This document shows positions 5,170-40,378 of a stretch of 64,000 bases of DNA, piece by piece (position 1 is the first letter of the stretch; each line of letters starts with the position of its first letter). The stretch is from Candidatus Peribacteria bacterium. GTDB lineage: Bacteria > Patescibacteriota > Gracilibacteria > Peribacterales > Peribacteraceae. The notes under the pieces are model-generated. The model did no database searches, was not told where the DNA came from, and saw nothing but the letters and a program-made list of their open reading frames with translations. Position numbers and translations under genes: made by a program. Where the stretch lies: positions 1-64,000 of the forward strand of contig JAHFJM010000003.1 in NCBI GenBank assembly GCA_023245935.1. The letters are read 5' to 3'.

Positions 5170-8100
5170 ATGCAATCAAACACTCGTCAAAGGCTGAAGA
5201 CCGGAGCAGCACTTGTTGTCCTTGTTGGGATGGTCATCGCTGCATACTCGCTCGTCGGAGCGTCGAGCATTCCTCAGAAATCCGATGAGCAATCAGCAAC
5301 ACACGTGACTTTTACCAAGACGGTTGTTTCGGTTCCCAGTGCATCCAAGCCCATTTCCAAGCCGACGTGGGTGGATATGAAGAGCGATTCGTGGCAGCGA
5401 AACTCTTCTGAAATCCCCGAGACGACAACGACTGTAGAGAGCAATATCCAGGAAAATGTTGCGCAGCGTTTGCAGAAACGTACGACCGGACTCTTCGCGT
5501 CGTTCGGTCCTGCGACCGATGGGCAGGTCCTCACATTCATCGGCGGGAAAATTTCCTGGGAGAATCTTCCGATCCTGCACGGAGCCGCAGGTTCATTCGA
5601 TACCGGTGACGATACGGGCGGCGGTCGCAAACCGTATCAACTGTCCGATGGCGAGCGTCATTACGGCGGAGGCGGGGGAGGAGGATCTTCTTCCAGTACG
5701 ACGATCACAAACACAACGACGGTAACCGGACTGTCTCAGTCTACGGCTGACGGACTGTACGTGAATGTCTCGGGTGACAGCATGGACGGTGCTCTCAGTA
5801 TTACCTACAACGGTCTCGGTCTTATCGTTTCCGGCACTGCTTCCGGCAACGTTCTTCATGCGGAGCGCTTGCTGACAGTCACTGGCTCGGCGATTTTCGA
5901 CGGCAATGCGAGGTTCAATTCAACGATGACCTTGAATGGCGTGACGTATAGCTTCCCCGGTTCCGACGGCAACGGATCCGGCAAAGTACTGAAGACGAAC
6001 GCTGCAGGTCAGCTGAGTTGGTCCGATGACAATACCGTCGGAACCGGGCTCTCGCAGAATTCGGGAGACGAACGGTACGTGAACCAAGCCGGCGATACGA
6101 TGACCGGAGCGCTCACGATCAATGTCACGAACGGCCTCTCGGCAACCCTCGGGCTCAAAGTCATCAACGCATTCTCCGGTGCTGTCGTACATGCTGAGAA
6201 AACTCTCACTTCCTCCGGCAATCTTGTTTGGGAAAGAGCAGCCTCCGGAGCCTCACTCTACGTTGCCACCTCAATCAATGGTGCAGGACTCACGGATTGT
6301 GATGCAGCCACGCAAACTCTCGCATGGGATGCGACCACCGGCAGATTCTCCTGCGGCACAGATTCCGACACCACCTACACAGCAGGACAAGGCTTCACGA
6401 CCAATGGAACCAACTTCTCACTTTCTTCTGCGTTCTCCGGAACATCTCTGAAGATCTTCGGAACACTGACCGGAAACATTCTCCACGCCGAGAAAACCCT
6501 CACTAGCTCAGGCACCTTCACCGTCGAAGGAGCCATGTCCGGTTCTTCCCTTTATGTCGCCACCAGCATCAACGGTGCAGGACTCACGGACTGTGATCTC
6601 TCCACGCAGAAACTCGCATGGGACAGCACCACCGGACGCTTCTCCTGCGGCACAGACCTGAACACCGGTACGACAGCCGCCCCAAGCATTAACTCCGGTT
6701 CCGTCTTCACGCTCGGTGATGCTCGGTACGTGAAGAAGCAAGGAGACACCATGACGGGAGTACTCACGATCAACAAAACCGGCGCAGAAGTTGGTCTCGA
6801 TGTGAAGCAGGCAGGTTGGTTCAACTCCATCCACTCCACCGGCTCCATCCTCTCCAAAGGAACACTCTCGGGAGTGAACCTCATCATCTCCGGTGTCTCT
6901 TCTCATTCCGGTGCTGCGATGTTCAAATCGAATGTCACCGTCAAAGGAACCCTCTCCGGTCAGACTCTCCAGATCGCCAACAATGCTTCCATCTCCGGTG
7001 CCCTCCTCGTTAAAACCGGTATCACGAGCAAAGGCTCTGTGAGTGGTGCCACCATTAATGGCTTCCACTTGGGTTCTTGTAACGGTGCATCGCAGAAACT
7101 TCTCTACAACAATTCCACGCAGACATTTGAGTGTGGAACGGATCTCAATACCGGTGGAACAGGCACCTTCGGCACAGGCAATGTGATCACGATCGGCGAC
7201 GGTCGATATGTGAATACCTCCGGTGATACGATGACCGGAGCGCTGACGATCAATGTCACGAACGGTCTCTCTGCAACTCTTGGACTCAAAGTTCTCAATG
7301 CATTCTCCGGTGCGGTGATTCATGGCGAGAAAACTCTCACCTCTTCAGGAACTCTCACATGGGAAGGAGCCGCTTCCGGCGCTTCTCTGTACGTTGCTAC
7401 TTCTCTGAACGGCGCAGGACTCACGGACTGTGATGCAGCAACGCAAACTCTCGCTTGGGATGCAACAACCGGCAGATTCTCCTGTGGTACCGATTCCGAC
7501 ACCACCTACACAGCCGGCCAGGGTCTCACGACGAACGGTACCAACTTCTCCCTCTCCTCCGCCCTCTCCGGCACCTCTCTCAGACTCTTCGGCACTCTCA
7601 CCGGAAACATTCTTCACGCTGAGAAGACTCTTACCTCTTCCGGCACTCTCACCATCGAAGGAGCCATGTCCGGTTCCTCCCTCTACATCGCAACCAGCAT
7701 CAATGGAGCAGGGCTCACGGATTGTGATCTCTCCACACAGAAACTCGCATGGGACAGCACCACCGGACGCTTCTCCTGCGGCACGGATCTCAACACCGGT
7801 TCCACCGCTCCTCCTTCCATCAACTCCGGCTCAGTCTTCACACTCGGCAATCTTCATTTCGTGAATGTCGGAGGCGACACCATGACGGGTGCACTCACGA
7901 TCAACAAAACGTCCGCCGAAGTCGGTCTCAACGTCGTGCAAGCCGGTTGGTTCGGTAGCATCCACTCCACCGGCTCGATTCTCTCGAAAGGAACACTTTC
8001 CGGCGTGAACCTCATCATCTCCGGCGTCTCTTCTCATTCCGGTGCTGCGATGTTCAAATCGAATGTCACCATTAAAGGCACTCTCTCCGGACAAACTCTC

Positions 8101-11100
8101 CAGATTGCCAACAATGCCTCAATCTCCGGTGCCCTCCTTATTAAGGGAAACCTCGCCACCAAATCCAACCTCTCCGGTTCCGCCCTCTTCGGTATGGGAC
8201 TCGGCGATTGCAGCAACTCAACCACCTCCAAACTTATCTACAACAACTCCACCGGTAAATTCTCGTGTGCCAGCGACATCGACACCAACACCACCTACAC
8301 AGCCGGCCAGGGTCTCACGACGAACGGTACCAACTTCTCCCTTTCCTCCGCCCTCTCCGGCACTTCTCTCAGACTCTTCGGCACTCTCACCGGAAACATT
8401 CTCCATGCCGAGAAAACCCTCACCAGCTCAGGCACCCTCACCGTCGAAGGAGCCATGTCCGGTTCTTCCCTCTACGTCGCAACCAGCATCAACGGTGCAG
8501 GACTCACGGACTGCGATCTCTCCACGCAGAAACTCGCATGGGACAGCACCACCGGTCGTTTCTCCTGCGGCACAGACCTGAACACCGGTTCCACTGCTCC
8601 TCCTTCCATCAACTCCGGTTCCGTCTTCACGCTCGGAAACCCTCATTTCGTGAATGTCGGGGGCGACACCATGACGGGCGCACTCACCATCAATGTCACG
8701 AACGGTCTCTCGGCCACTCTCGGACTCAAAGTTCTCAACGCATTCTCCGGTTCCGTGATTCACGCCGAGAAAACTCTTACCAGCTCCGGCGGTCTCGTCT
8801 GGGAAGGCGCTGCCTCGGGTTCTTCCCTCTACGTCGCCACTTCTCTCCGTGGTGCAGGACTCACAGACTGTACCGGTGGCAACAAGCTCCTCTGGGATTC
8901 CTCGACCGGCAGATTCACCTGCGGTGTTGATCAGTCTGCCGGCACTGGGCTTGATCAAAATTCTGCCGATGTTCGCTACGTCAATCAATCCGGAGACACC
9001 ATGACCGGTCTCCTCACCATCAACCTTGCCGCTTCCGCCGTCGGTCTCGATGTGAAGCAGGCAGGTTGGTTCAACACCATCCACTCCACCGGTTCGATTC
9101 TCTCCAAAGGAACCCTCTCCGGCGTGAACCTCATCATCTCCGGTGTCTCTTCTTTCTCCGGTGCTTCCACCTTCAAGAACAACCTTACGGTCAAAGGCAC
9201 TCTCTCCGGTCAAACTCTCCAGATTGCCAACAATGCTTCCATCTCCGGTGCCCTCCTCGTCAAAGGAAACATCGCAACGAAAGCCACTCTCTCGGGTGCT
9301 TCGCTCATCGGCTTCGGTCTCGGCGATTGCAGCAATGCCACGACCAGTAAACTCATCTACAACAACTCCACCGGAAAATTCTCGTGTGCTACGGACACTG
9401 ACACGAATACGACCTACACCGCAGGACAGGGTCTCACGACCAACGGTACCAACTTCTCCCTTTCCTCCGCCCTCTCCGGCACTTCTCTCAGACTCTTCGG
9501 CACTCTCACGGGAAACATTCTTCATGCCGAGAAGACACTCACCAGCTCAGGCACCCTCACCGTCGAAGGAGCCATGTCCGGTTCTTCCCTCTACGTCGCA
9601 ACCAGCATCAACGGTGCAGGACTCACGGACTGTGATGCAGCAACGCAAACTCTCGCTTGGGATGCAACAACCGGCAGATTCTCCTGTGGTACCGATTCCG
9701 ACACCACCTACACCGCAGGACAGGGTCTCACGACCAACGGTACCAACTTCTCCCTTTCCTCCGCCCTCTCCGGCACTTCTCTCAGACTCTTCGGCACTCT
9801 CACGGGAAACATTCTTCACGCTGAGAAAACGCTTACCTCTTCCGGAACACTCACGATTGAAGGTGCAATGTCTGGAGCATCTCTCTACGTCGCCACCAGC
9901 ATCAACGGTGCAGGACTCACGGACTGTGATCTCTCCACGCAGAAACTCCTCTGGGACAGCACCACCGGACGTTTCTCTTGTGGAACAGACCTGAACACCG
10001 GCACGACAGCCGCCCCGAGCATCAACTCCGGTTCTGTCTTCACCCTCGGTGATGCCAGATTCGTGAAGAAACAAGGAGACACGATGACCGGAGCCCTCAC
10101 GATCAACAAAACCGGCGCAGAAGTTGGTCTGGATGTGAAGCAGGCAGGCTGGTTCAACTCCATCCACTCCACCGGCTCGATTCTCTCGAAAGGAACACTT
10201 TCCGGAGAAAACCTTATTGTCTCAGGTGTCTCCTCCTTCTCCGGCATCGTCGTCCTCAAGGGAAATCTCCTTTCGAAAGGTACTCTCTCAGGACAGAACC
10301 TCATCATCTCCGGTGTTTCTTCTCACTCCGGTGCTGCGATGTTCAAATCGAATGTCACCATTAAAGGCACTCTCTCCGGACAAACTCTCCAGATTGCCAA
10401 CAATGCCTCAATCTCCGGTGCCCTCCTTATTAAGGGAAACCTCGCCACCAAATCCAACCTCTCCGGTTCCGCCCTCTTCGGTATGGGACTCGGCGATTGC
10501 AGCAACTCAACCACCTCCAAACTTATCTACAACAATTCCACCGGAAAGTTCTCGTGTGCCAGTGATCAGACCGGAAGCAGCGGGCTCTCCTTCACGAATG
10601 CAGAAGGAATCTATGTGAATCAGGGTGGCGATACGATGACAGGTGCTCTGAATATCAATGTCACGGGCGGCGGATTTGCCACAGTCGGTCTCAAGGTCGT
10701 GAACACCATCACCGGTGCGATCATCCATGCGGAGAAAAATCTCACGAGCTCGGGAAATATCGTTGCCGCTCAGGACATTACGGCGAAGAGGAATCTTTCC
10801 GGAAGCAGCATCACTGTTTCACGGAATGGTTCCATTTCCGGCTCGCTCACAGTCAAAACGAGTATTGTCAGTCAGGGTTCTCTCTCCGGTTCTACGTTCT
10901 ATGGAGCCAACCTTGGAGACTGTAATAACAGCACGACATCAAAACTCATCTACAACCTCGCAACAGGAAAATTCGGCTGTGCGACGGATCAGACCGGAAG
11001 TGCTGCTCCGAGCATCAACTCCGGCTCCGTCTTCACGCTCGGCAATCTTCATTTCGTGAACGTCGGCGGAGACACGATGACCGGTGCTCTCGTTATCAAC

Positions 11101-14100
11101 AAGACCAGTGCTGCCGTCGGTCTCGACGTCAAGCAAGCTGCTTGGGTCAACACTCTCCACGCAACCGGTTCGATCCTCAGCAAAGGAACCATTTCCGGCA
11201 GCAACCTCATCGTCTCCGGTGTCTCCTCCTTCTCCGGCATCGTCGTTCTCAAGGGAAACCTTCTCAGTAAGGGCACTCTCTCCGGACAGAATCTCATCAT
11301 CTCCGGAGTTTCCTCTTTCTCCGGCGCTTCCACCTTTAAGAACAACCTTACGGTCAAAGGAACTCTCTCCGGTCAAACTCTCCAAATCGCCAACAATGCT
11401 TCTATCTCCGGTGCCGTGATCATCAAAGGAAATCTCGCAACGAAAGCCACACTCTCGGGTGCGTCTGTCTACGGCTTCGGCCTCGGAGATTGCAGCAACA
11501 GCACGACCTCCAAACTCATCTACAACAATTCCACCGGGAAATTCTCGTGTGCCACTGATGTCGACACCGATACGAATACCAGTTACACAGCAGGACAAGG
11601 TCTCACGACAAACGGAACGAACTTCTCGCTTTCCTCAGCACTCTCGGGAACCTCTCTCAAGATCTTCGGCACTCTCACCGGAAAAATTCTGCATGCTGAG
11701 AAGACTCTTACATCCTCGGGAACTCTCACCGTCGAAGGAGCAATGTCCGGAGCCTCACTGTACGTTGCCACCTCAATCAATGGCGCAGGACTCACGGATT
11801 GCGATGCAGCAACACAGACTCTCGCATGGGACGCAACAACCGGTCGCTTCTCCTGCGGAACGGACTCCGATACAACCTACACTGCAGGTCAGGGGCTCAC
11901 GACAAACGGAACCAACTTCTCTCTCTCCTCCGCACTCTCAGGAACCTCTCTCAGACTCTTCGGAACTCTGACGGGAAACATTCTGCATGCGGAGAAGAAC
12001 CTCACTTCTTCAGGAACAATGGTGATTGTTGGCAATGGAAACATCAGAGGAACGCTTTCGGGCAACATCATTCATGCGGAAAAAAATCTCACAAGCTCAG
12101 GTGCGATTGTCGCAGTTGGAGACATACTTTCTCGAAACGGAACAGCAAAAACAAAAGGTTATGTTTTCTTTTCAGGTGCAACACTCTCCGAGATGAGCGG
12201 CTTCAATGAATATCTGAACATCATTCATTCCGGTCTCGGAACGAACTCCGTTACCCGTCTTACGAATCAAGGAGATCTCGTGAATATCGGAACGATTCAA
12301 GCGGGAGAAACACACATGAGGAGAGGAGGGACGTTTGCGACAAAGGTGGATTATGCGACGGGAACCACTCCGCAGTTTGTCGCCATCAGAGACCTCAATA
12401 GTGACGGAAAGGCTGATCTTGTGGTAGTGAACGGAGCGAGCAACTCCGTCTCCGTCTTCATTGGCACAGGCTCGGGTCTCTTCGTCGCCAAAGTAGACTA
12501 CCCAACAGGAAGCAACCCTTTCTCCGTCGCTATCGGTGATCTGAATGGCGATGGGAAACCTGATCTTTCCGTCGCAAATTACAGCAGCAACTCCGTCTCC
12601 GTCTTCCTCAATAACGGCAATGGAACATTCGCCGGTAAAGTCGATTATACAACGGCAACGTCTCCTCATTCCGTTGCTATCGGTGATCTGAATGGCGATG
12701 GGAAGCCCGATCTTGCTGTAGCAAATAATGCTAGCGACTCGGTCTCCGTCTTCCTGAACAGAGGGAACGGCACTTTCGCTGCAAAGGTTGATTATACGAC
12801 TGGAAACGGTCCCTATGCCGTTGCAATCGGAGACCTGAACGGAGACGGCAAGGCGGATCTTGTCGTTACAAATGCCGGCAGTACCTACGCTTCTGTTTTC
12901 TTGAATAACGGTGACGGAACATTCGCCTCGAAAGTTGATTACACGACGGGATTCAGTAACTATGCCGTCGCAATCGGAGATCTGAACGGTGACGGAAAGG
13001 CGGACTTTGCAGTTACCATACACAATAGCAATATTGTCTACGTCTTCCTCAATAACGGTGACGGAACATTCGCTTCGAAGGTTGATTACACGGCGGGGGA
13101 TACCTCCAGTTCCATTGCCATTGGAGACCTGAATGGTGACGGAAAAGCAGATCTTGCAGTTGGAAATCAGGCTAGTGGTGTAGGAACCTTTGTTTCCATC
13201 TTGATCAACAACGGCAACGGCACCTTCGCAACGAAGGTGGATTATACGACGGGAACTGGTCCTCTTGTTGCAATCGGAGATCTCAATGGTGACGGAAAAG
13301 CAGATCTTGCTGTTGCCAACTCTGCAAGCGACTCTGTTTCAGTATTGCTCAACATCTCCAAGACTATCCTCTTTGCATCTTCCGGCACCGGCGGCGCCGT
13401 TGGTATCGGAACTTCCACTCCGGGTTCCGCGCTGTCCGTGTCCGGTGCGGTGCTCATCAACGGCTACGGAAATATCCTCAATACGAAAGTCGACGTCGGT
13501 CTTGCGCTCGAAGTGATCGGCACCATGTCCGGTCGAGTACTGCATGCACAGGATGTGCTTCGCTCCTCCGGCTCACTTATTGTCGAAGGGACGATCTCGG
13601 GAGCAACACTCCGCGGTGCGGGACTTGCAAGTTGCAACGGCTCCACACAGAAACTTCTCTATAACAATTCCACGAATAAATTTGAATGCGGCACTGATCT
13701 GAACACCGGAGGAACAAGTACATTCGGCTCCGGGAACGTGATCAACGTCGTTGAAGGCAGATATGTGAACACCTCCGGCGACACCATGACCGGTGCTCTC
13801 ACGATCAATGTCACGAACGGTCTCTCTGCCACTCTCGGACTCAAAGTTCTCAACGCATTCTCCGGTGCCGTCGTTCACGCTGAGAAAACTCTCACCAGCT
13901 CCGGCGGTCTCGTCTGGGAAGGAGCAGCTTCAGGATCTTCCCTCACCCTCGGTACTTCTCTCCGTGGTGCAGGGCTCACAGACTGTACCGGTGGCAACAA
14001 ACTCCTCTGGGATTCTGCTTCCGGCAGATTCTCCTGCGGCGTTGATCAATCCGCCGGATCAGGCTTGGATCAGAATTCCGCTGATGCTCGCTACGTCAAT

Positions 14101-17100
14101 CAGTCGGGAGACACCATGACCGGTCTCCTCACCATCAACCTGGCTGCTTCCGCCGTCGGTCTTGATGTGAAGCAGGCAGGCTGGTTCAACTCGATCCACT
14201 CCACCGGTTCGATCCTCTCCAAAGGCACTCTCTCCGGTGTGAACCTCATCATCTCCGGAGTCTCCTCTTTCTCCGGTGCTTCCACCTTCAAGAACAACCT
14301 TACGGTCAAAGGCACTCTCTCCGGTCAAACTCTCCAGATTGCCAACAATGCTTCCATCTCCGGTGCCCTCCTTATCAAAGGAAACCTTGCCACCAAATCC
14401 AACCTCTCCGGTTCCGCCCTCTTTGGCATGGGTCTCGGAGATTGCAGCAACAGCACGACCTCCAAACTCATCTACAACAATTCCACCGGTAAATTCTCGT
14501 GTGCCAGCGACATCGACACCAACACCACCTACTCAGCCGGACAGGGTCTCACGACAAACGGTACCAACTTCTCACTCTCCTCCGCCCTCTCCGGCACTTC
14601 TCTCAGACTCTTCGGCACTCTCACGGGAAACATTCTTCACGCTGAGAAGACTCTCACCTCTTCCGGGACACTCACGATTGAAGGTGCAATGTCCGGAGCC
14701 TCACTCTATGTTGCCACCTCAATCAATGGCGCAGGACTCACGGATTGTGATGCAGCAACGCAGACGCTGAACTGGGATTCCACCACCGGACGTTTCTCCT
14801 GTGGCACAGACTCCGACACCACCTACACAGCCGGCCAGGGTCTCACGACGAACGGTACCAACTTCTCCCTTTCCTCCGCCCTCTCCGGCACTTCTCTCAA
14901 ACTCTTTGGCACTCTCACCGGAAACATTCTTCATGCAGAAAAGACTCTCACGTCTTCGGGAACTCTCACCATCGAGGGCGCAATGTCCGGAGCCTCTCTC
15001 TACGTCGCCACTTCCTTCTCCGGGGTTGGACTGTCGGATTGTGATACTGCTGCTACCTCCAAGTTGCTTTGGGATGTTACCACCGGCAGATTCTCCTGCG
15101 GATCAGACCAGACCGGCGGCGGTTCCGCTCCTCCTTCCATCAACTCCGGCTCCGTCTTCACGCTCGGCAATCTCCACTTCGTGAATGTCGGCGGCGACAC
15201 CATGACGGGTGCACTCACCATCAACAAGACCGGCGCAGAAGTGGCTCTCGATATCAAACAAGCAGCGTGGGTCAATTCTCTCCATTCCACCGGTTCCATC
15301 CTTTCGAAAGGAAACCTTTCCGGAGAAACGTTGATCGTCTCCGGCAATGCAAACGTCTCCGGAGCACTTCTGACCAAAGGAAATATTTCCACTCGAGGAA
15401 CAATCTCCGGTGCAGCACTCAACATCATGAGCGGCAATTCCTACTTCCTCGGCAAGCTTGGAATCGGAAAATCGACCGCTCCAAACACCCCTCTCGAGAT
15501 CGTCGGCATGGGCTCGGGAACCAGCCTCTTCGCGATGCGAGCGCTCACAAGCAGCGGCTTCCTCGCCGTCCAGCAGTCGATTGCGATCGGTTCCGGTGCA
15601 ATCGTGATGGAGCAGAAGGCGAACAACACGGGTGCCTACCTGATGTCCAGCTTCACCGGCTCGGTGCATCCGCTCCTTGCGCTTGACAGCGCACGTCGAA
15701 GCTTCAAGGCACCCGCCATCATGTTCGGTTACCGCGGCAGCTTCGATACGTCACTCCAGCGCACGGACACGGGAACGCTTGCACTCTCCGGCAGTATGGT
15801 GATTCAGAATACGCTCAGCATCAAAGTCTTCGGAGCCGCAACGGCGACGACGGTTTGTCGCACTGCGACGGGCATGCTTGCAGCGTGCAGCTCGAGTCTT
15901 CGTTTCAAGGAAGATGTGCAGGACTTGAGCATGGGTCTTTCGGTCCTTCGGCAAATGCGTCCGGTCAACTTCAAGTGGAAAGGCAGAGACGAGCGTGACA
16001 TCGGTTTCATCGCCGAGGAAGTCGCAGCCGTCGATCCGATGCTTGCGACCTACAATAACGCCGGACAGATCGAAGGTGTGAAGTACATGCAGCTGACCGC
16101 GGTGCTCACGAATGCCGTGAAGACTCTCGATACGAGGCTGCTTGGCATCACGAATGACTCGGGCACAACTCTTCATGCTCGCGATCTGCTCGTCAGTTCC
16201 GGAGCCCTGAAGGTAGCCACATTCGGCACATTCGGTTCGGGCATTCTCCTCGACACGAAGTATGCAAATGGCGCTGAGAACGTCTTCGTCATCAAGTCGA
16301 GTGTCGGCGGTTCCGGAAGCAAAACTGTCTTCAGGATCAACGCTTCGGGCTCCGTCTTCACGACCGGAACATTCAACAGTCAGGGAGCGGACTACGCCGA
16401 GTGGTTCAAGTCCAGTGACAGACTAAAGATCGGCGAAGTTGTCTGTATTGATGTCGACCACGACAATACGGTCCTTCGTTGCGGACGCTCTGCAGATTCC
16501 AATGTGATGGGCATTGTCTCGACTCGTCCCGCGTTCATCGGCAATACGATCCCCGGGACTGAAGGACTCAGCAGAGAAGCCATGGCACGGAAGGGATATT
16601 TCCTCGTCGGTCTCATCGGTCAGGTTCCGGCACGCGCGACGCTCGAAGGAGGCATCATCCGCTCCGGCGACAGTCTGACGTCAGCGTCTGAGCCGGGCTT
16701 TGTGCGCAGAGCACGGGCAGGGGAATCGACGGTCGGTGTTGCGCTCGAAACATTCGATGGTTCGGCTTCGCTCACCACAGGTGGCTCGACATCTTCCACG
16801 TCGACGATCAACGTTCTCATCTCTCGTCGCAATTCGTCGATGACGGTCGATGCCGTCTCACAGAAAGTGCTCGACACGATCGCAAGCATGCAGATCGGGG
16901 ATGAGGTGAAACGCATGGTCGCCGCATCGGCGCAGCAATTCAATCTCTCCGGTTCTCTTGCGACCGCCGTTGCCTCCGAGATCGAATCTCTGAATCTGGA
17001 AGGCAGGATCTCTGCGGCGATCGAGAAACATCTCTCCGGTGCGACGCTTCCGCTCACGATCATTGCAAACCCTGCGTCCGGATTGTCGTTCGCTTCCGGC

Positions 17101-18078
17101 GGAATGCTGCATGCCGCAGCGCTCGAAGTCGAAAGCGGTGCCATGATTTCCGGCGCTCTTCGCTTGAATGGTTCGATGATCACGAGCAATCAGTTCTCAC
17201 TGATCAATTCTCAGGTATCAATGTTGTCCGTCTCCGGTTCCGCCATCCAGATCGGTTCACTGATGTCCTCAGGTTCTCTCACGTTGATCGGTCCCGTCAC
17301 GATCGAAGGGCTCTCGACGTTCCTCGGGGATGTCGAGATCAAAGGTGAGCTCTCTGTCAGCGCAAAACAGGCGGGCATTGCTCTCGTGCCGAAAGGAGGA
17401 ACGGGTGTGTCGGTCACGTTCTCCGGAGCATTCCTCGGAACACCGATCGTGACGGCGACGTCCGACGGCTTCGGTTCGTGGCGCCTCAGGAATCGCACGC
17501 AGTCCGGGTTCACCATCGAGCTCAAAGAGCCTGCGAACGAAGATGTCACATTCACGTGGCTTGCACTTTCTTCCAGAGCACCGAGCATGACAACAGGCGT
17601 GCCGGCGACCCCGTCGCTCATTCCGTTCCCTGTGAACAGTCTCGGTCAACCGGTCTCGAGTGATCCGATCTGGAACGGCTGCATTCAGGGTCATCCGCCG
17701 GTCGACGCTGACGGTGTTCCGTTCAGCTGCGCTCGGTATCATTCCGACTCGGTGTGGGATCATCCAGATCTGCATATCAGTTTCATCTATAGCAGCAGTC
17801 ACGATCCCGCGATTCTGACAATCCCTGAGGGATACCAAGTGACGGTTGTCGGAGGAGATACAGCTTCGAGCTCGTCTTCTCAATCTGACACTCCGACAGA
17901 CCAAAACATTCCTGAAATCAGCACAGATCCGATCGTTGTTCCTCAGGTAATTCCTATCATTGAAACAACCGACTCGGGATCGTCTGATGCATCGGTCACG
18001 GTCAATCCGGAGAGTGATGAGACGCCACCGGTACCGACTGAATCGGGTGTCGAAACAGGAAGTGCGCTCGAGGAGTAG
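5170..18078 (+). CDS. Giant repeat surface protein with tail-fibre modules, FG-GAP propeller and S74 self-cleaving domain
   Basis: 4302 residues. An N-terminal membrane segment (about 13-31) acts as signal or anchor. After a Gly-rich linker (about 166-180) come 13 copies of a G-D-x-M-x-G motif typical of phage tail-fibre shafts (residues about 200-2380 and 2870-3400). Seven DLNGDGK-type FG-GAP/VCBS repeats (about 2387-2735) interrupt them. The S74 chaperone-of-endosialidase domain begins at Ser3576-LRF-Lys3580-ED, the usual Ser/Lys autocleavage site, and includes DIGFIAEEV. Unlike classic S74 proteins, about 726 residues follow: a YAEWF...VMGIVSTRPAFIGN region resembling Peptidase_G2 (about 3742-3880), a segment resembling H-type lectin (about 4073-4135), and a Ser/Thr/Pro-rich acidic tail. 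Inference: a trimeric surface fibre for attachment. The exosortase gene follows 27 nt later. Confidence 0.88.
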   Translation: MQSNTRQRLKTGAALVVLVGMVIAAYSLVGASSIPQKSDEQSATHVTFTKTVVSVPSASKPISKPTWVDMKSDSWQRNSSEIPETTTTVESNIQENVAQRLQKRTTGLFASFGPATDGQVLTFIGGKISWENLPILHGAAGSFDTGDDTGGGRKPYQLSDGERHYGGGGGGGSSSSTTITNTTTVTGLSQSTADGLYVNVSGDSMDGALSITYNGLGLIVSGTASGNVLHAERLLTVTGSAIFDGNARFNSTMTLNGVTYSFPGSDGNGSGKVLKTNAAGQLSWSDDNTVGTGLSQNSGDERYVNQAGDTMTGALTINVTNGLSATLGLKVINAFSGAVVHAEKTLTSSGNLVWERAASGASLYVATSINGAGLTDCDAATQTLAWDATTGRFSCGTDSDTTYTAGQGFTTNGTNFSLSSAFSGTSLKIFGTLTGNILHAEKTLTSSGTFTVEGAMSGSSLYVATSINGAGLTDCDLSTQKLAWDSTTGRFSCGTDLNTGTTAAPSINSGSVFTLGDARYVKKQGDTMTGVLTINKTGAEVGLDVKQAGWFNSIHSTGSILSKGTLSGVNLIISGVSSHSGAAMFKSNVTVKGTLSGQTLQIANNASISGALLVKTGITSKGSVSGATINGFHLGSCNGASQKLLYNNSTQTFECGTDLNTGGTGTFGTGNVITIGDGRYVNTSGDTMTGALTINVTNGLSATLGLKVLNAFSGAVIHGEKTLTSSGTLTWEGAASGASLYVATSLNGAGLTDCDAATQTLAWDATTGRFSCGTDSDTTYTAGQGLTTNGTNFSLSSALSGTSLRLFGTLTGNILHAEKTLTSSGTLTIEGAMSGSSLYIATSINGAGLTDCDLSTQKLAWDSTTGRFSCGTDLNTGSTAPPSINSGSVFTLGNLHFVNVGGDTMTGALTINKTSAEVGLNVVQAGWFGSIHSTGSILSKGTLSGVNLIISGVSSHSGAAMFKSNVTIKGTLSGQTLQIANNASISGALLIKGNLATKSNLSGSALFGMGLGDCSNSTTSKLIYNNSTGKFSCASDIDTNTTYTAGQGLTTNGTNFSLSSALSGTSLRLFGTLTGNILHAEKTLTSSGTLTVEGAMSGSSLYVATSINGAGLTDCDLSTQKLAWDSTTGRFSCGTDLNTGSTAPPSINSGSVFTLGNPHFVNVGGDTMTGALTINVTNGLSATLGLKVLNAFSGSVIHAEKTLTSSGGLVWEGAASGSSLYVATSLRGAGLTDCTGGNKLLWDSSTGRFTCGVDQSAGTGLDQNSADVRYVNQSGDTMTGLLTINLAASAVGLDVKQAGWFNTIHSTGSILSKGTLSGVNLIISGVSSFSGASTFKNNLTVKGTLSGQTLQIANNASISGALLVKGNIATKATLSGASLIGFGLGDCSNATTSKLIYNNSTGKFSCATDTDTNTTYTAGQGLTTNGTNFSLSSALSGTSLRLFGTLTGNILHAEKTLTSSGTLTVEGAMSGSSLYVATSINGAGLTDCDAATQTLAWDATTGRFSCGTDSDTTYTAGQGLTTNGTNFSLSSALSGTSLRLFGTLTGNILHAEKTLTSSGTLTIEGAMSGASLYVATSINGAGLTDCDLSTQKLLWDSTTGRFSCGTDLNTGTTAAPSINSGSVFTLGDARFVKKQGDTMTGALTINKTGAEVGLDVKQAGWFNSIHSTGSILSKGTLSGENLIVSGVSSFSGIVVLKGNLLSKGTLSGQNLIISGVSSHSGAAMFKSNVTIKGTLSGQTLQIANNASISGALLIKGNLATKSNLSGSALFGMGLGDCSNSTTSKLIYNNSTGKFSCASDQTGSSGLSFTNAEGIYVNQGGDTMTGALNINVTGGGFATVGLKVVNTITGAIIHAEKNLTSSGNIVAAQDITAKRNLSGSSITVSRNGSISGSLTVKTSIVSQGSLSGSTFYGANLGDCNNSTTSKLIYNLATGKFGCATDQTGSAAPSINSGSVFTLGNLHFVNVGGDTMTGALVINKTSAAVGLDVKQAAWVNTLHATGSILSKGTISGSNLIVSGVSSFSGIVVLKGNLLSKGTLSGQNLIISGVSSFSGASTFKNNLTVKGTLSGQTLQIANNASISGAVIIKGNLATKATLSGASVYGFGLGDCSNSTTSKLIYNNSTGKFSCATDVDTDTNTSYTAGQGLTTNGTNFSLSSALSGTSLKIFGTLTGKILHAEKTLTSSGTLTVEGAMSGASLYVATSINGAGLTDCDAATQTLAWDATTGRFSCGTDSDTTYTAGQGLTTNGTNFSLSSALSGTSLRLFGTLTGNILHAEKNLTSSGTMVIVGNGNIRGTLSGNIIHAEKNLTSSGAIVAVGDILSRNGTAKTKGYVFFSGATLSEMSGFNEYLNIIHSGLGTNSVTRLTNQGDLVNIGTIQAGETHMRRGGTFATKVDYATGTTPQFVAIRDLNSDGKADLVVVNGASNSVSVFIGTGSGLFVAKVDYPTGSNPFSVAIGDLNGDGKPDLSVANYSSNSVSVFLNNGNGTFAGKVDYTTATSPHSVAIGDLNGDGKPDLAVANNASDSVSVFLNRGNGTFAAKVDYTTGNGPYAVAIGDLNGDGKADLVVTNAGSTYASVFLNNGDGTFASKVDYTTGFSNYAVAIGDLNGDGKADFAVTIHNSNIVYVFLNNGDGTFASKVDYTAGDTSSSIAIGDLNGDGKADLAVGNQASGVGTFVSILINNGNGTFATKVDYTTGTGPLVAIGDLNGDGKADLAVANSASDSVSVLLNISKTILFASSGTGGAVGIGTSTPGSALSVSGAVLINGYGNILNTKVDVGLALEVIGTMSGRVLHAQDVLRSSGSLIVEGTISGATLRGAGLASCNGSTQKLLYNNSTNKFECGTDLNTGGTSTFGSGNVINVVEGRYVNTSGDTMTGALTINVTNGLSATLGLKVLNAFSGAVVHAEKTLTSSGGLVWEGAASGSSLTLGTSLRGAGLTDCTGGNKLLWDSASGRFSCGVDQSAGSGLDQNSADARYVNQSGDTMTGLLTINLAASAVGLDVKQAGWFNSIHSTGSILSKGTLSGVNLIISGVSSFSGASTFKNNLTVKGTLSGQTLQIANNASISGALLIKGNLATKSNLSGSALFGMGLGDCSNSTTSKLIYNNSTGKFSCASDIDTNTTYSAGQGLTTNGTNFSLSSALSGTSLRLFGTLTGNILHAEKTLTSSGTLTIEGAMSGASLYVATSINGAGLTDCDAATQTLNWDSTTGRFSCGTDSDTTYTAGQGLTTNGTNFSLSSALSGTSLKLFGTLTGNILHAEKTLTSSGTLTIEGAMSGASLYVATSFSGVGLSDCDTAATSKLLWDVTTGRFSCGSDQTGGGSAPPSINSGSVFTLGNLHFVNVGGDTMTGALTINKTGAEVALDIKQAAWVNSLHSTGSILSKGNLSGETLIVSGNANVSGALLTKGNISTRGTISGAALNIMSGNSYFLGKLGIGKSTAPNTPLEIVGMGSGTSLFAMRALTSSGFLAVQQSIAIGSGAIVMEQKANNTGAYLMSSFTGSVHPLLALDSARRSFKAPAIMFGYRGSFDTSLQRTDTGTLALSGSMVIQNTLSIKVFGAATATTVCRTATGMLAACSSSLRFKEDVQDLSMGLSVLRQMRPVNFKWKGRDERDIGFIAEEVAAVDPMLATYNNAGQIEGVKYMQLTAVLTNAVKTLDTRLLGITNDSGTTLHARDLLVSSGALKVATFGTFGSGILLDTKYANGAENVFVIKSSVGGSGSKTVFRINASGSVFTTGTFNSQGADYAEWFKSSDRLKIGEVVCIDVDHDNTVLRCGRSADSNVMGIVSTRPAFIGNTIPGTEGLSREAMARKGYFLVGLIGQVPARATLEGGIIRSGDSLTSASEPGFVRRARAGESTVGVALETFDGSASLTTGGSTSSTSTINVLISRRNSSMTVDAVSQKVLDTIASMQIGDEVKRMVAASAQQFNLSGSLATAVASEIESLNLEGRISAAIEKHLSGATLPLTIIANPASGLSFASGGMLHAAALEVESGAMISGALRLNGSMITSNQFSLINSQVSMLSVSGSAIQIGSLMSSGSLTLIGPVTIEGLSTFLGDVEIKGELSVSAKQAGIALVPKGGTGVSVTFSGAFLGTPIVTATSDGFGSWRLRNRTQSGFTIELKEPANEDVTFTWLALSSRAPSMTTGVPATPSLIPFPVNSLGQPVSSDPIWNGCIQGHPPVDADGVPFSCARYHSDSVWDHPDLHISFIYSSSHDPAILTIPEGYQVTVVGGDTASSSSSQSDTPTDQNIPEISTDPIVVPQVIPIIETTDSGSSDASVTVNPESDETPPVPTESGVETGSALEE
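6040..12130 (+). repeat. Coding repeat array 1 of the giant protein
   Basis: Long in-frame modules recur with near-identical DNA. Module A (GQGLTTNGTNFSLSS through TTGRFSCGTD) begins near 6382, 7516, 8302, 9424, 9718, 11593 and 11884. Module B (INSGSVFTLG through NNASISGALL) begins near 6687, 7818, 10018 and 11014. Module C (GDTMTGALTINVTNG) begins near 6091, 7225 and 8668. The near-identity over hundreds of bases suggests recent duplication or gene conversion, and the region is prone to misassembly from short reads. Confidence 0.85.
12328..13370 (+). repeat. Seven FG-GAP/VCBS repeats within the giant protein
   Basis: Seven repeats of about 48-50 residues, each with a calcium-loop-like D-L-N-(G/S)-D-G-K-x-D motif and a preceding K-V-D-Y-x-T-G strand. 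Seven units are what a closed seven-bladed integrin-alpha-type propeller requires. The block sits between two runs of fibre repeats. Confidence 0.85.
13770..15370 (+). repeat. Coding repeat array 2 of the giant protein
   Basis: The same A, B and C modules as array 1 resume after the propeller: GDTMTG motifs near 13783, 14110 and 15196, and GQGLTTNGTNFSLSS near 14539 and 14836. At DNA level they are very similar to array 1, implying the FG-GAP block was inserted into, or grew within, a pre-existing array. Confidence 0.8.
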
Positions 18079-36958: not shown

Positions 36959-37210
36959 ATGTATGCCGTTGAAGTAAAAAAGAAGGCAATGAAAGCAATA
37001 CTTGCTCTCTCCACAAGAGATCAGCAAAAAATTCTTCTCGCTTTTGATGTGCTGAGAGAGAATCCTATGGCAGGAAAGATGCTGGAGGGAGAGTACAAGG
37101 GACTTCGGTCGCTGCGTGTGTGGCCGTACCGCATACTCTATGCAGTTGACCATGGGACTGTCACCGTCACCGTGGTGAAGGTCGCACACAGGAAAGATGT
37201 CTACAGATGA
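36959..37210 (+). CDS. RelE/ParE-family toxin
   Basis: 83 residues with a RelE-like fold: VEVKKKAMKAILAL, then GLRSLRVWPYRILYAVDHGTVTVTVVKVAHRKDVYR, the conserved Arg-rich and Tyr-containing beta strands of mRNA-cleaving RelE toxins. The C-terminal HRKDVYR matches the active-site end of RelE proteins. It overlaps the convergent secD gene by 10 nt at the 3' end. Confidence 0.88.
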   Translation: MYAVEVKKKAMKAILALSTRDQQKILLAFDVLRENPMAGKMLEGEYKGLRSLRVWPYRILYAVDHGTVTVTVVKVAHRKDVYR

Positions 37211-39642
37211 TCCTGCACTTGATTCGTCTCTCCTTTCTTCACTCCGAACAAATCCAGTCTCTCGGCAAGCGGCGAGGAGGCGATTTTGCGGCAGAGGAAG
37301 CGCGAGACGACGATTGCCGTGAACAGCGAGATGAAGATACCGATCATGAGCGTGATGGCGAACCCGCGGATGATGCTCGTGCCGATCGTGAAGAGGATGA
37401 GGCAGGTGATGAGCGTCGACGTGTTGCCGTCACGAACGCTCGGCCATGCTTTGCGGAATCCCGTTTCGACGGCTGTCTTCAGCATTTTCCCTTTGCGCAG
37501 TTCTTCCTTTATGCGCTCGAAGGCGAGCACGTTGGCGTCCACAGCCATGCCCATACTGAGGATGATGCCGGCGATACCTGCGAGCGTGAGCACGACGTAC
37601 TGGTTCGAGATCAAACCGATCGGGAGTTTCGTGGATGCGATGAGAAGGACGACGTAGAACAGGAGCGCGATGCTTGCGAGCACGCCGAGCACGCGGTAGA
37701 TGAAGATCAGGAAGAGACAGAGAATCAGAAGACCGACGGCGGCAGCCGTAATCGACTGCTTGAGTGCGCTGCTGCCGAGCGTTGCTTCGATCGTGCTCTG
37801 ACCCGACAGGTAAATCGGCGCCGGAATGGCACCGGTATTCAAGTCCTGCGCAAGGTTCTGCGCTTCCTTGATGTCGCGGCTTCCCGTGATGACGGCGTTG
37901 CCGCCGACAATCTCATTCTGGACGGTCGGGGCTGAGACCAGTTCGCCGCCGACGAAGATGGCGATGCGCTTGTTGATATTGCGCTTCGTGAGTTCCTGGA
38001 AGAGCTTGCCGCCTTCCTCGTCGAACTGGATCTGCACGACGGGGATGTTCGTGACGGGATCGAACGAAACCGCTGCCGAGCGGAATCTGCGTCCGTTCAG
38101 TTCCGTGTCTTTCCAACCCGTCGGTTCCATGGAGAAGAAGATGCTGCGGATGACGATCTGACTTTCGGTGCGCTTCACCTCGCCTTTCTCCACTTTTGCG
38201 ATCAACTCTTTCGCTTTGGAGAGATCGCCTTTCAGTCGCAGCAACGAGTAGCTCACTTTCGTCGGTGAGAGGCTCGGAGCTTTGTCTGCTTTGATGATGT
38301 GGAACCCGAACGGCGTCTCGACGATATCGCTGATCTGACCTTGTTTGAGTGCGAATGCAGCCTGTTCGAACGGTGCCACCATCTGTCCGCGTTGGATGAC
38401 GCCGAGAGATCCGGCCTGTTCTTTTGACGGACCGTCGGAGACCGTTTTTGCGAGCGTTTGGAAATCGCTTCCCTGCGCCAGTTGCTGCTTGATCGACTTG
38501 ATCAGCGTCATTGCCTGTTCTTTCGTTCGTTTGACTGTTGCATCGGCGCGTTCTGCTCCCTTGTACTGGATCAGAATGTGGCTTGCGGTCATCTCCTCCG
38601 TTCCGTCAGTCCGACCGACGAGGTAGAGGATGCCGCTGTCTCCGTTCTCGAGTGAGACGGCTTCCTGCGTGCCGATGGTCATCGACGTGAGGAGTGTGCC
38701 GATTTCCTTCGGCGCAGTCGCGATGTCCACCGTGTCTTTCTTCGTGACCACGGAATCGGGAAGAGTGCTTGCCAGCTCATCGTAGGCTTCGCGCGGGTCC
38801 GTGAGAGGTCTCTCCGCGGGAGCCGGATCCGTCAGCAGTTTCGTGAGGTAGATTCCTTTGATGTCTTTGACGACCTGCTGCCCGTTTGCATCCTGACCGG
38901 TCGCCTGGATGACGGCTTCGGTCTTGAGGACCGGATCCGACGCCTTTCGCTTGGCAAGAACCTCGAGCCCTTTCGGGAGAGAGCTCAGAAACAGCGGGCG
39001 TGCGTCGAAGTACGTGACACCGAGCGTCGAGCTCAAGTCCTGTCCGTAGACTTGCAGATTTCCCGTTCCGGTCGTGACCGCGCGATACACCGCGTCCGCC
39101 TTTGCCCGCGCTTTGTTCTCAAATTCGATGGTTGCGCCGCTGAATTCTTCTTTGAACTCCAACTGGATCGTCTTGCCGACGGTCGCGATGCATTTGTTGA
39201 CATCGATGACCCCCGGACACTCCACGAGAAGATGTTTCTCATTGCCGAAGTATGACGGCGTGATGGTCGCTTCGCTGACACCGAGACCGTTGATACGGCG
39301 CTCGAGAACCGTACGGATGGCTTCCACAAGGGCAAGATGCTGCTGCTGCACGTTCTGGAGCTCAAACTGCTTCGCGAGAACTTCCTTATTGTTCTGACTG
39401 TCGCTCTTCAGTGTGGCGATATCCTTCTTCAGTTGATCTTCGCGTGCGATGATTTCATCTTCGGAAATTCTGAAGTCGAGCTGCGTGCCGCCGGCAAGGT
39501 CCAAACCGAGGTGAACGGAAGGCCTCAGGAACTTCGGGAAGTGCGTCTTCCACGAGTCGGGCATTGCGATCAGCGTGCAGAAGATTCCGACGACGACCGT
39601 GACGGTTGGCCAGAAGGTGGAGCGTTGTTCAGAGGAAGCCAT
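37201..39642 (-). CDS. secD: Protein translocase SecD with an inserted parvulin (PpiC) domain
   Basis: 813 residues from the ATG at 39642. SecD uses the proton-motive force to finish protein export. Seen: TM1 (about 12-28), LGLDLAGGTQLDF (45-57), the first periplasmic region (RRINGLGVSEATITP), then at 351-455 a complete parvulin peptidyl-prolyl isomerase domain (ASHILIQYKG, AGSLGVIQRGQMV, FEQAAFALKQGQISDIVETPFGFHIIK). The SecD head domain resumes (VQIQFDEEGGKLFQEL, IFVGGELVSAP, VITGSRDIKEAQNLA), followed by five membrane helices with MAVDANVLAFERIKEELR. Typical SecD is 500-620 residues. SecF is not in the window. An in-frame ORF extends 144 residues upstream but is compositionally spurious. 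Confidence 0.93.
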   Translation of the reverse strand: MASSEQRSTFWPTVTVVVGIFCTLIAMPDSWKTHFPKFLRPSVHLGLDLAGGTQLDFRISEDEIIAREDQLKKDIATLKSDSQNNKEVLAKQFELQNVQQQHLALVEAIRTVLERRINGLGVSEATITPSYFGNEKHLLVECPGVIDVNKCIATVGKTIQLEFKEEFSGATIEFENKARAKADAVYRAVTTGTGNLQVYGQDLSSTLGVTYFDARPLFLSSLPKGLEVLAKRKASDPVLKTEAVIQATGQDANGQQVVKDIKGIYLTKLLTDPAPAERPLTDPREAYDELASTLPDSVVTKKDTVDIATAPKEIGTLLTSMTIGTQEAVSLENGDSGILYLVGRTDGTEEMTASHILIQYKGAERADATVKRTKEQAMTLIKSIKQQLAQGSDFQTLAKTVSDGPSKEQAGSLGVIQRGQMVAPFEQAAFALKQGQISDIVETPFGFHIIKADKAPSLSPTKVSYSLLRLKGDLSKAKELIAKVEKGEVKRTESQIVIRSIFFSMEPTGWKDTELNGRRFRSAAVSFDPVTNIPVVQIQFDEEGGKLFQELTKRNINKRIAIFVGGELVSAPTVQNEIVGGNAVITGSRDIKEAQNLAQDLNTGAIPAPIYLSGQSTIEATLGSSALKQSITAAAVGLLILCLFLIFIYRVLGVLASIALLFYVVLLIASTKLPIGLISNQYVVLTLAGIAGIILSMGMAVDANVLAFERIKEELRKGKMLKTAVETGFRKAWPSVRDGNTSTLITCLILFTIGTSIIRGFAITLMIGIFISLFTAIVVSRFLCRKIASSPLAERLDLFGVKKGETNQVQDHL

Positions 39643-39682: not shown

Positions 39683-40378
39683 TCAGGGATTCGTGAAGCT
39701 GACAAAGAGTCCGACGTTGACATCATCCGCAAACACTTCGGCGATTGCCGCCGAAGGAATGCCGCTGATGATGACGTGATCCTCAACTTTTTCCGTTGTG
39801 ATCGACATTTTGGAGACCAGAAGATCCCGAACGAAGACTCCGAGATTCTTCCCGACATTCTGCGTAAAGACGTCGGCAAGAGCTTTCTTGCCTTCTTCCG
39901 TGAACTGCAACTCGATCGAGACGACGCCTGTCGCCTTATTTCCGACTGCTTGCACCCAGACAATGCTTGATCCCGTGAGCGTTGTTTCCGTCCAGTCACC
40001 CGCCTGCACTGAAGCTTCGGTGGGCAGGCTCGCATTCGTGTCATTCTTTGTGTCTTTTGCCTTCGGCTCTTCAATGCGAAGATCGAAGGTGAACGGTTCT
40101 GCCAGGATTTCCTTCGTTCTGCTTGCCGTTTCCGCAGTCGGGAGCGTCAGTGTGAGAGTTGCGGTGTTCGTTCCGGTCGGCACCACGCTCGCATGCGCAT
40201 TCTTCACGTTGATTGCAGCGAGGCGACGATTCATCACGCGTTCGGTTGCCTGCACCAATGACAATACTTTTGCGGAGTCCGATGCCCGAATCGTCAATTT
40301 CTGCACGATCTTCTGTTCCCCGCTGCATGCAGCGAGGCTGAGAGCAAAGCCGATCAGGAGGAATATGTTCCTTTTCAT
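39683..40378 (-). CDS. Lipoprotein resembling the SecD periplasmic domain
   Basis: 231 residues with lipoprotein signal MKRNIFLLIGFALSLAAC (lipobox LAAC). The mature part resembles SecD periplasmic segments: VMNRRLAAINVKNAHASVVP parallels SecD RRINGLGVSEATITP, and VSIELQFTEEGKKALADVF...LGVFVRDLLVSKMSI...ISGIPS parallels the VQIQFDEEGGKLFQEL...IFVGGELVSAP head. It has no export membrane helices. It starts upstream of secD on the same strand with a 40-nt gap, so the two are probably co-expressed. Role unknown; a stand-alone SecD-head partner is inference. Confidence 0.7.
   Translation of the reverse strand: MKRNIFLLIGFALSLAACSGEQKIVQKLTIRASDSAKVLSLVQATERVMNRRLAAINVKNAHASVVPTGTNTATLTLTLPTAETASRTKEILAEPFTFDLRIEEPKAKDTKNDTNASLPTEASVQAGDWTETTLTGSSIVWVQAVGNKATGVVSIELQFTEEGKKALADVFTQNVGKNLGVFVRDLLVSKMSITTEKVEDHVIISGIPSAAIAEVFADDVNVGLFVSFTNP

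Follow-up and report, generated by a model that had tools for sequence, protein, structure and literature searches.

The SecD protein of a Candidatus Peribacteria bacterium (GenBank assembly GCA_023245935.1, contig JAHFJM010000003.1) contains a complete parvulin-type peptidyl-prolyl isomerase (PPIase) domain. The host lineage is that of an ultra-small bacterium, and SecD is the motor subunit that helps to pull proteins out of the cell. Judged from its sequence and predicted fold, the 813 residue protein should function as the SecD subunit of SecDF, the proton-driven accessory motor of export, with the parvulin inserted into it. The gene is in the window, by which is meant the whole 64,000 nucleotide stretch of DNA that was analysed (positions 1 to 64,000 of the contig). 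The protein and its main parts are placed as follows:

37201..39642 (-), stop codon included: SecD-parvulin fusion P0001, 813 aa (translation, TIGR01129, AlphaFold2 model)
39565..39633 (-): TM1, residues 4-26, the membrane anchor that precedes the extracytoplasmic region (AlphaFold2 helix at 4-26, hydrophobic sequence)
39148..39324 (-): P1 base, N-terminal part (Pfam SecD_1st, residues 107-165, E 1.3e-11)
38281..38607 (-): parvulin (PpiC/Rotamase) domain, residues 346-454, with His355 and His448 (Rotamase_3, Pin1 superposition)
37819..38112 (-): SecDF P1 head subdomain, residues 511-608 (Pfam PF22599, SecDF_P1_head, E 3.8e-27)
37273..37797 (-): RND-type membrane domain (SecD_SecF_C), residues 616-790 (Pfam 616-785, E 4.2e-11; superposes on SecDF structures)
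37537..37539 (-): Asp702 codon, aligned to Asp340 of Thermus SecDF (phmmer alignment to 3aqp)

Both halves of the protein score above the cut-offs of their families. The NCBIfam SecD equivalog TIGR01129 gives 330.8 bits (cut-off 244.4), and the Pfam models Rotamase_3 (PF13616, residues 341-453, E 8.5e-31) and Rotamase (PF00639, residues 355-453, E 4.3e-26) give 107.4 bits (cut-off 22.5) and 92.2 bits (cut-off 21.7), respectively. The SecD order of P1 N-terminal domain, P1 head and SecD_SecF_C membrane domain is kept. The Sec_GG motif (PF07549) reaches 15.9 bits against a cut-off of 20.3, and GLDLAGGTQL can be seen by eye at residues 46-55. Among solved chains, the nearest to both ends of the protein are SecDF (3aqp, 3e-65), and the nearest to its middle are parvulins of the Pin1, PrsA and SurA types. 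A sequence-only reading of this DNA had proposed a full parvulin at residues 351-455, between the first periplasmic region and the SecD head. These residues correspond exactly to positions 38278-38592, the domain is complete by both Rotamase_3 and its match to Pin1, and the Pfam order of P1 base, Rotamase_3 and P1 head places it where it had been proposed.

The motor half appears intact, since Asp702, which is invariant among the 37 sequences of alignment A2, aligns with Asp340 of Thermus SecDF, which we take to be a proton-pathway residue in TM4. The membrane topology is presumably that of the SecD family and, judged by that topology, the insert is on the extracytoplasmic side. Because its insertion point separates P1 base from P1 head, the parvulin would be outside the membrane at the SecYEG exit. 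The window protein shares the P1 base, P1 head, RND membrane domain and proton-pathway Asp with Thermus thermophilus SecDF (3aqp/5yhf) and Escherichia coli SecD (5mg3_D), yet these known structures have no insert at the site of its complete parvulin.

The predicted structures agree with these assignments. AlphaFold2 models residues 165-512 with a mean pLDDT of 93.8; in this model residues 346-454 superpose on Pin1 (4tns_B) with a Z score of 18.9 (109 residues at 1.7 Å) and also match PrsA, at a Z score of about 16 (94 residues at 1.2 Å). The full-length model (mean pLDDT 85, pTM 0.52) matches SecDF: its Z score against 5yhf is 24.9, and 396 residues superpose on 3aqp at 4.3 Å. Within this full-length model residues 346-454 match Pin1 as well. 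The separate superpositions of one model on SecDF and on Pin1 indicate that both folds are present in one chain. Pfam, TIGR01129 and the AlphaFold folds thus bear out the earlier proposal that an export motor and a parvulin-type PPIase domain share one polypeptide. The orientation of the modelled parvulin relative to the SecD fold and the channel is uncertain.

The insert is larger than the parvulin. The residues given for the parvulin by the earlier reading stood, but the bounds of the insert did not: residues from about 165 to 510, about 345 more than in the known SecD structures, stand in place of a short linker. Two candidate degenerate modules precede the intact domain:

38833..39150 (-): insert part A, residues 165-270, putative non-catalytic parvulin-like module 1 (predicted element order)
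38605..38835 (-): insert part B, residues 270-346, putative second degenerate parvulin-like module (predicted element order)

In the predicted secondary structure the parvulin element order occurs twice in residues 165-345, as helix-helix-strand-helix-strand-strand in part A (fragment H8-27 H32-39 E45-54 H63-67 E75-86 E92-105) and as strand-helix-strand-helix-strand-strand in part B. Comparison with the parvulin-1 copy of other fused SecD gave weak profile matches, with a probability of 23% for part A and 7.5% for part B, so we assign these modules by inference and do not claim them as parvulins on sequence. At the place of part A other lineages show a clear Rotamase match. SecD of Uhrbacteria and Magasanikbacteria type has two Rotamase stretches, of which the first, next to the P1 base, is weak and the second strong, and the equivalent of residues 165-345 is longer in the window protein than in these. 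SurA also has two parvulins, the first inactive, much as one or more presumably inactive parvulin-like modules precede an active-looking parvulin here. However, SurA is a soluble periplasmic chaperone that acts in trans and the window parvulin is in cis, and the SurA N-domain was not found in the window protein.

Is the fusion peculiar to this genome, or even to its assembly? A survey of related SecD, suggested by the earlier reading, showed that it is neither. A search of 58 related genomes identified full-length fused homologues, 46-80% identical, in 30 other genomes of the same family, with a constant insertion point between P1 base and P1 head. All 31 same-family genomes with a parvulin match, our own included, have a single PF00639 match, in the SecD frame; no parvulin match was present in four others (G003, G016, G024 and G034), three of which are 78-86% complete. 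More widely in the class, 134 of the 242 genomes drawn have a parvulin and, in the listed table, it lies in a frame of at least 540 aa in all but one of these 134, the exception being a 473-aa protein of genome G046 that is taken up again below. All the class frames of at least 540 aa with a full parvulin that were fetched are SecD. Other families of the class are also fused, and their frames of 1025-1114 aa are SecD-SecF fusions with the parvulin inside.

In a draw of 380 genomes from the phylum the parvulin frames were of about 200-430 aa, which are putative free parvulins, or of about 560-740 aa; all 24 fetched frames of the longer class are SecD. Named records with the fusion are from Peregrini-/Peribacteria, Gracilibacteria, Uhr-, Magasanik-, Falkow-, Buchanan- and Kerfeldbacteria, and this spread over other families and lineages rules out a fusion unique to the genome or its family. 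The rest of the Patescibacteria mostly have ordinary SecD frames of 430-500 aa without the insert, which rules out a fusion universal in the phylum. A single origin is possible and is compatible with the SecD tree. Outside the Patescibacteria, among the best 80 of 558 loci, matches were parvulin-only or SecD-only and no fusion was seen. To our knowledge SecD and the parvulin foldase are separate proteins in all other bacteria. One contig labelled Lysobacteraceae (L121, OTbin.42) has a fused SecD of Buchananbacteria/Patescibacteria type, and its label is probably a binning error.

The earlier reading had asked whether a chimeric assembly could account for the insertion. We give almost no credence to an assembly or binning artefact, in which a chimeric contig joined a parvulin gene to secD: the identical junction in dozens of independent assemblies rules out a chimera, the open reading frame is uninterrupted with purifying selection spanning the junction, and no point supporting an artefact was found.

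Run against the genome itself (1.22 Mb, 99% complete), the three main Pfam models for PPIases detected a single parvulin, the SecD domain, and no free PrsA or SurA. They also matched one cyclophilin of 216 aa that has a lipobox, and one FKBP-family protein, trigger factor, a cytosolic PPIase and chaperone. The trigger factor gene directly follows secF in this genome (L053 862-3071 (-)) and in 14 of the 15 same-family genomes that were checked for it (L196-L210). Immediately upstream of secD is a gene for a small lipoprotein:

39683..40378 (-): 231-aa lipoprotein (LAAC lipobox), a TM-less copy of SecD P1 without parvulin (Pfam, TIGR01129)

This lipoprotein matches Pfam SecDF_P1_head (E 6.7e-8) and TIGR01129 (7e-11), and a lipobox open reading frame of similar size is directly upstream of secD in 25 of 29 other same-family loci. 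Lipobox proteins in three further genomes, G226 (L060 1732-3168 (+)), G327 (L061 1962-3434 (-)) and G046 (L055 2015-3433 (-)), consist of a P1-like region, a parvulin and a P1-head-like end, the P1-like ends of the G046 protein being assigned by eye. These three proteins have no membrane segments and look like copies of the SecD-parvulin arm that have become lipoproteins in their own right. Elsewhere in the window, at 5170-18078 (+), a single 4302-aa open reading frame has FG-GAP repeats as well as bactofilin-like stretches, with a peptidase S74 (endosialidase chaperone) domain at the C-terminus, and probably encodes a giant exported surface protein.

Whether the inserted domain could be an active isomerase depends on its active site, in which two codons are of note:

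38578..38580 (-): His355, equivalent to Pin1 His59 (Pin1 alignment)
38299..38301 (-): His448, equivalent to Pin1 His157 (conserved in fused SecD)

His355 is kept in 94 of the 98 fused SecD that have a residue there. His448 is kept in 112 of 115, a set that counts a few genomes twice, and is invariant in alignments A1 and A2. Met421 and Phe425 form the proline pocket and, with the His pair, are conserved in nearly all 115 fused sequences. The position of Pin1 Cys113 is Gly404 in the window protein, with Asp403 adjacent and a loop one residue shorter; across the 115 it is Asp in 54, Gly in 31 and Glu in 26, and in free parvulins it is usually Asp or Cys. On these residues, prolyl isomerase catalysis by the SecD parvulin is likely, and is put no higher because of the Gly at the Cys113 position despite the presence of both His.

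The main rival reading takes the parvulin fold as a non-catalytic clamp or ratchet on SecD that binds substrate as a chaperone, in a SurA-like chain, with isomerisation weak or irrelevant. The chaperone function of SurA is independent of its PPIase activity. We consider such a clamp unlikely here, though the Gly at the Cys113 position and the two degenerate parvulin-like modules ahead of the intact one would suit it. It would also be consistent with SecD in class families f2 and f15 (L042, L044, L046), where the region is kept and the SecD insert has just the vestigial end of a parvulin, lacking the catalytic His (for example GGISDVLENANGYFLY). This suggests that catalysis has been lost in the SecD of these families. 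The vestigial domains indicate that the activity can be lost and, together with the insert-free SecD of many Patescibacteria, that it is dispensable to SecD as such. Against a purely non-catalytic role is the conservation of the His pair and the Met/Phe pocket in the intact copy, when the catalytic His pair has been lost from the first-copy modules of fused SecD. Active-site residues kept in the intact copy and lost in the first copies are the pattern expected for an active-site function.

Comparison of genomes G001 and G002 shows that the parvulin is under strong purifying selection (dN 0.059, dS 1.11, dN/dS about 0.05), tighter than its neighbours in the insert (dN 0.134 for modules 1-2) and looser than the SecD core (dN 0.018 for the P1 head). 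This bears on a second alternative, that the insert is mainly architectural, lengthening the P1 arm past a thick surface layer or docking the partner lipoprotein, with substrate handling secondary. Insert length does vary across fused SecD, from one to about three modules in proteins of 560-1150 aa, and a P1-like lipoprotein is encoded beside secD. Even so, this alternative is quite improbable, as a spacer needs no invariant catalytic His pair and the parvulin diverges more slowly than modules 1-2.

The reading that we favour, and regard as fairly probable, is that of a functional SecD whose PrsA/PpiC-type parvulin handles emerging chains at the Sec exit and replaces a free parvulin of PrsA or SurA type. 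The replacement is proposed because the SecD domain is the sole parvulin in the genome. The P1 head would bind a precursor emerging from SecYEG, and the adjoining parvulin would bind unfolded segments containing Xaa-Pro, speed prolyl isomerisation and shield the chain. Binding by the parvulin might also limit backsliding of the chain, and the proton-driven swing of P1 might carry the bound segment off the channel. A foldase on the moving SecDF arm would thus meet each chain as it emerges, a SurA-SecDF partnership in cis. The isomerase activity, the contact with emerging substrate and the coupling to the proton cycle are all inferred.

Known foldases offer parallels. PrsA and PpiC (Bacillus PrsA 6vj4, E. 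coli PpiC) are extracytoplasmic too, and the window parvulin is 38-45% identical to PrsA PPIase domains; PrsA, however, is a free foldase held by a lipid anchor and has an N/C domain of its own, whereas the window parvulin is built into the translocon motor. PpiD of the PpiD-YfgM pair is likewise a parvulin-type protein but, unlike the SecD-fused parvulin, is a separate protein with a single TM, and the parvulin domain of PpiD is regarded as inactive. Together with YfgM, PpiD is stationed at SecYEG, where it promotes translocation (PMC9643414). The E. coli holo-translocon is bound by SurA, and all five top AlphaFold models dock the two parvulin domains of SurA onto the P1 head of SecDF (PMC9987972).

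An alternative with a different target has the parvulin acting as a regulatory switch on the Sec machinery, for example on prolines in SecD, in SecF or in the lipoprotein partner, instead of on exported substrates. Its position in cis on the moving P1 domain and the paired lipoprotein would fit. We hold this very improbable, since no conserved target was identified and the free parvulins PrsA, PpiC and SurA act on exported clients. A more extended form of the favoured reading, substrate handling at the Sec exit, is put forward tentatively as a possibility. The SecD P1 arm would then be a chain of parvulins, two degenerate and one catalytic, forming a SurA-like foldase and chaperone in cis on the proton-driven motor, with lipoprotein copies of P1, with or without parvulin, alongside. 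This would amount to a PMF-coupled folding station at the Sec exit in place of free PrsA or SurA.

The sequence-only reading knew of no such fusion among described SecD proteins, and we likewise found no description of it, judged by titles and abstracts, in the literature library searched, whose scope did not extend to subscription papers or database-only annotations. Automatic domain annotation probably already records such architectures without comment. Both halves belong to known families; their combination is the new part. The domain search of the 813 residue protein and the structure prediction, both proposed with that reading, each recovered parvulin and SecD together.

The fusion bears on the handover of emerging proteins from SecDF to folding factors. 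At the E. coli translocon, SurA and PpiD are found only loosely or transiently. A covalent fusion across many genera is strong 'Rosetta stone' evidence for parvulin foldases acting directly on SecDF P1, and it offers a single stable chain for structural work and for probing any coupling of proton-driven P1 motion to proline isomerisation. For these reduced, mostly uncultured bacteria, it locates the parvulin foldase: inside SecD.
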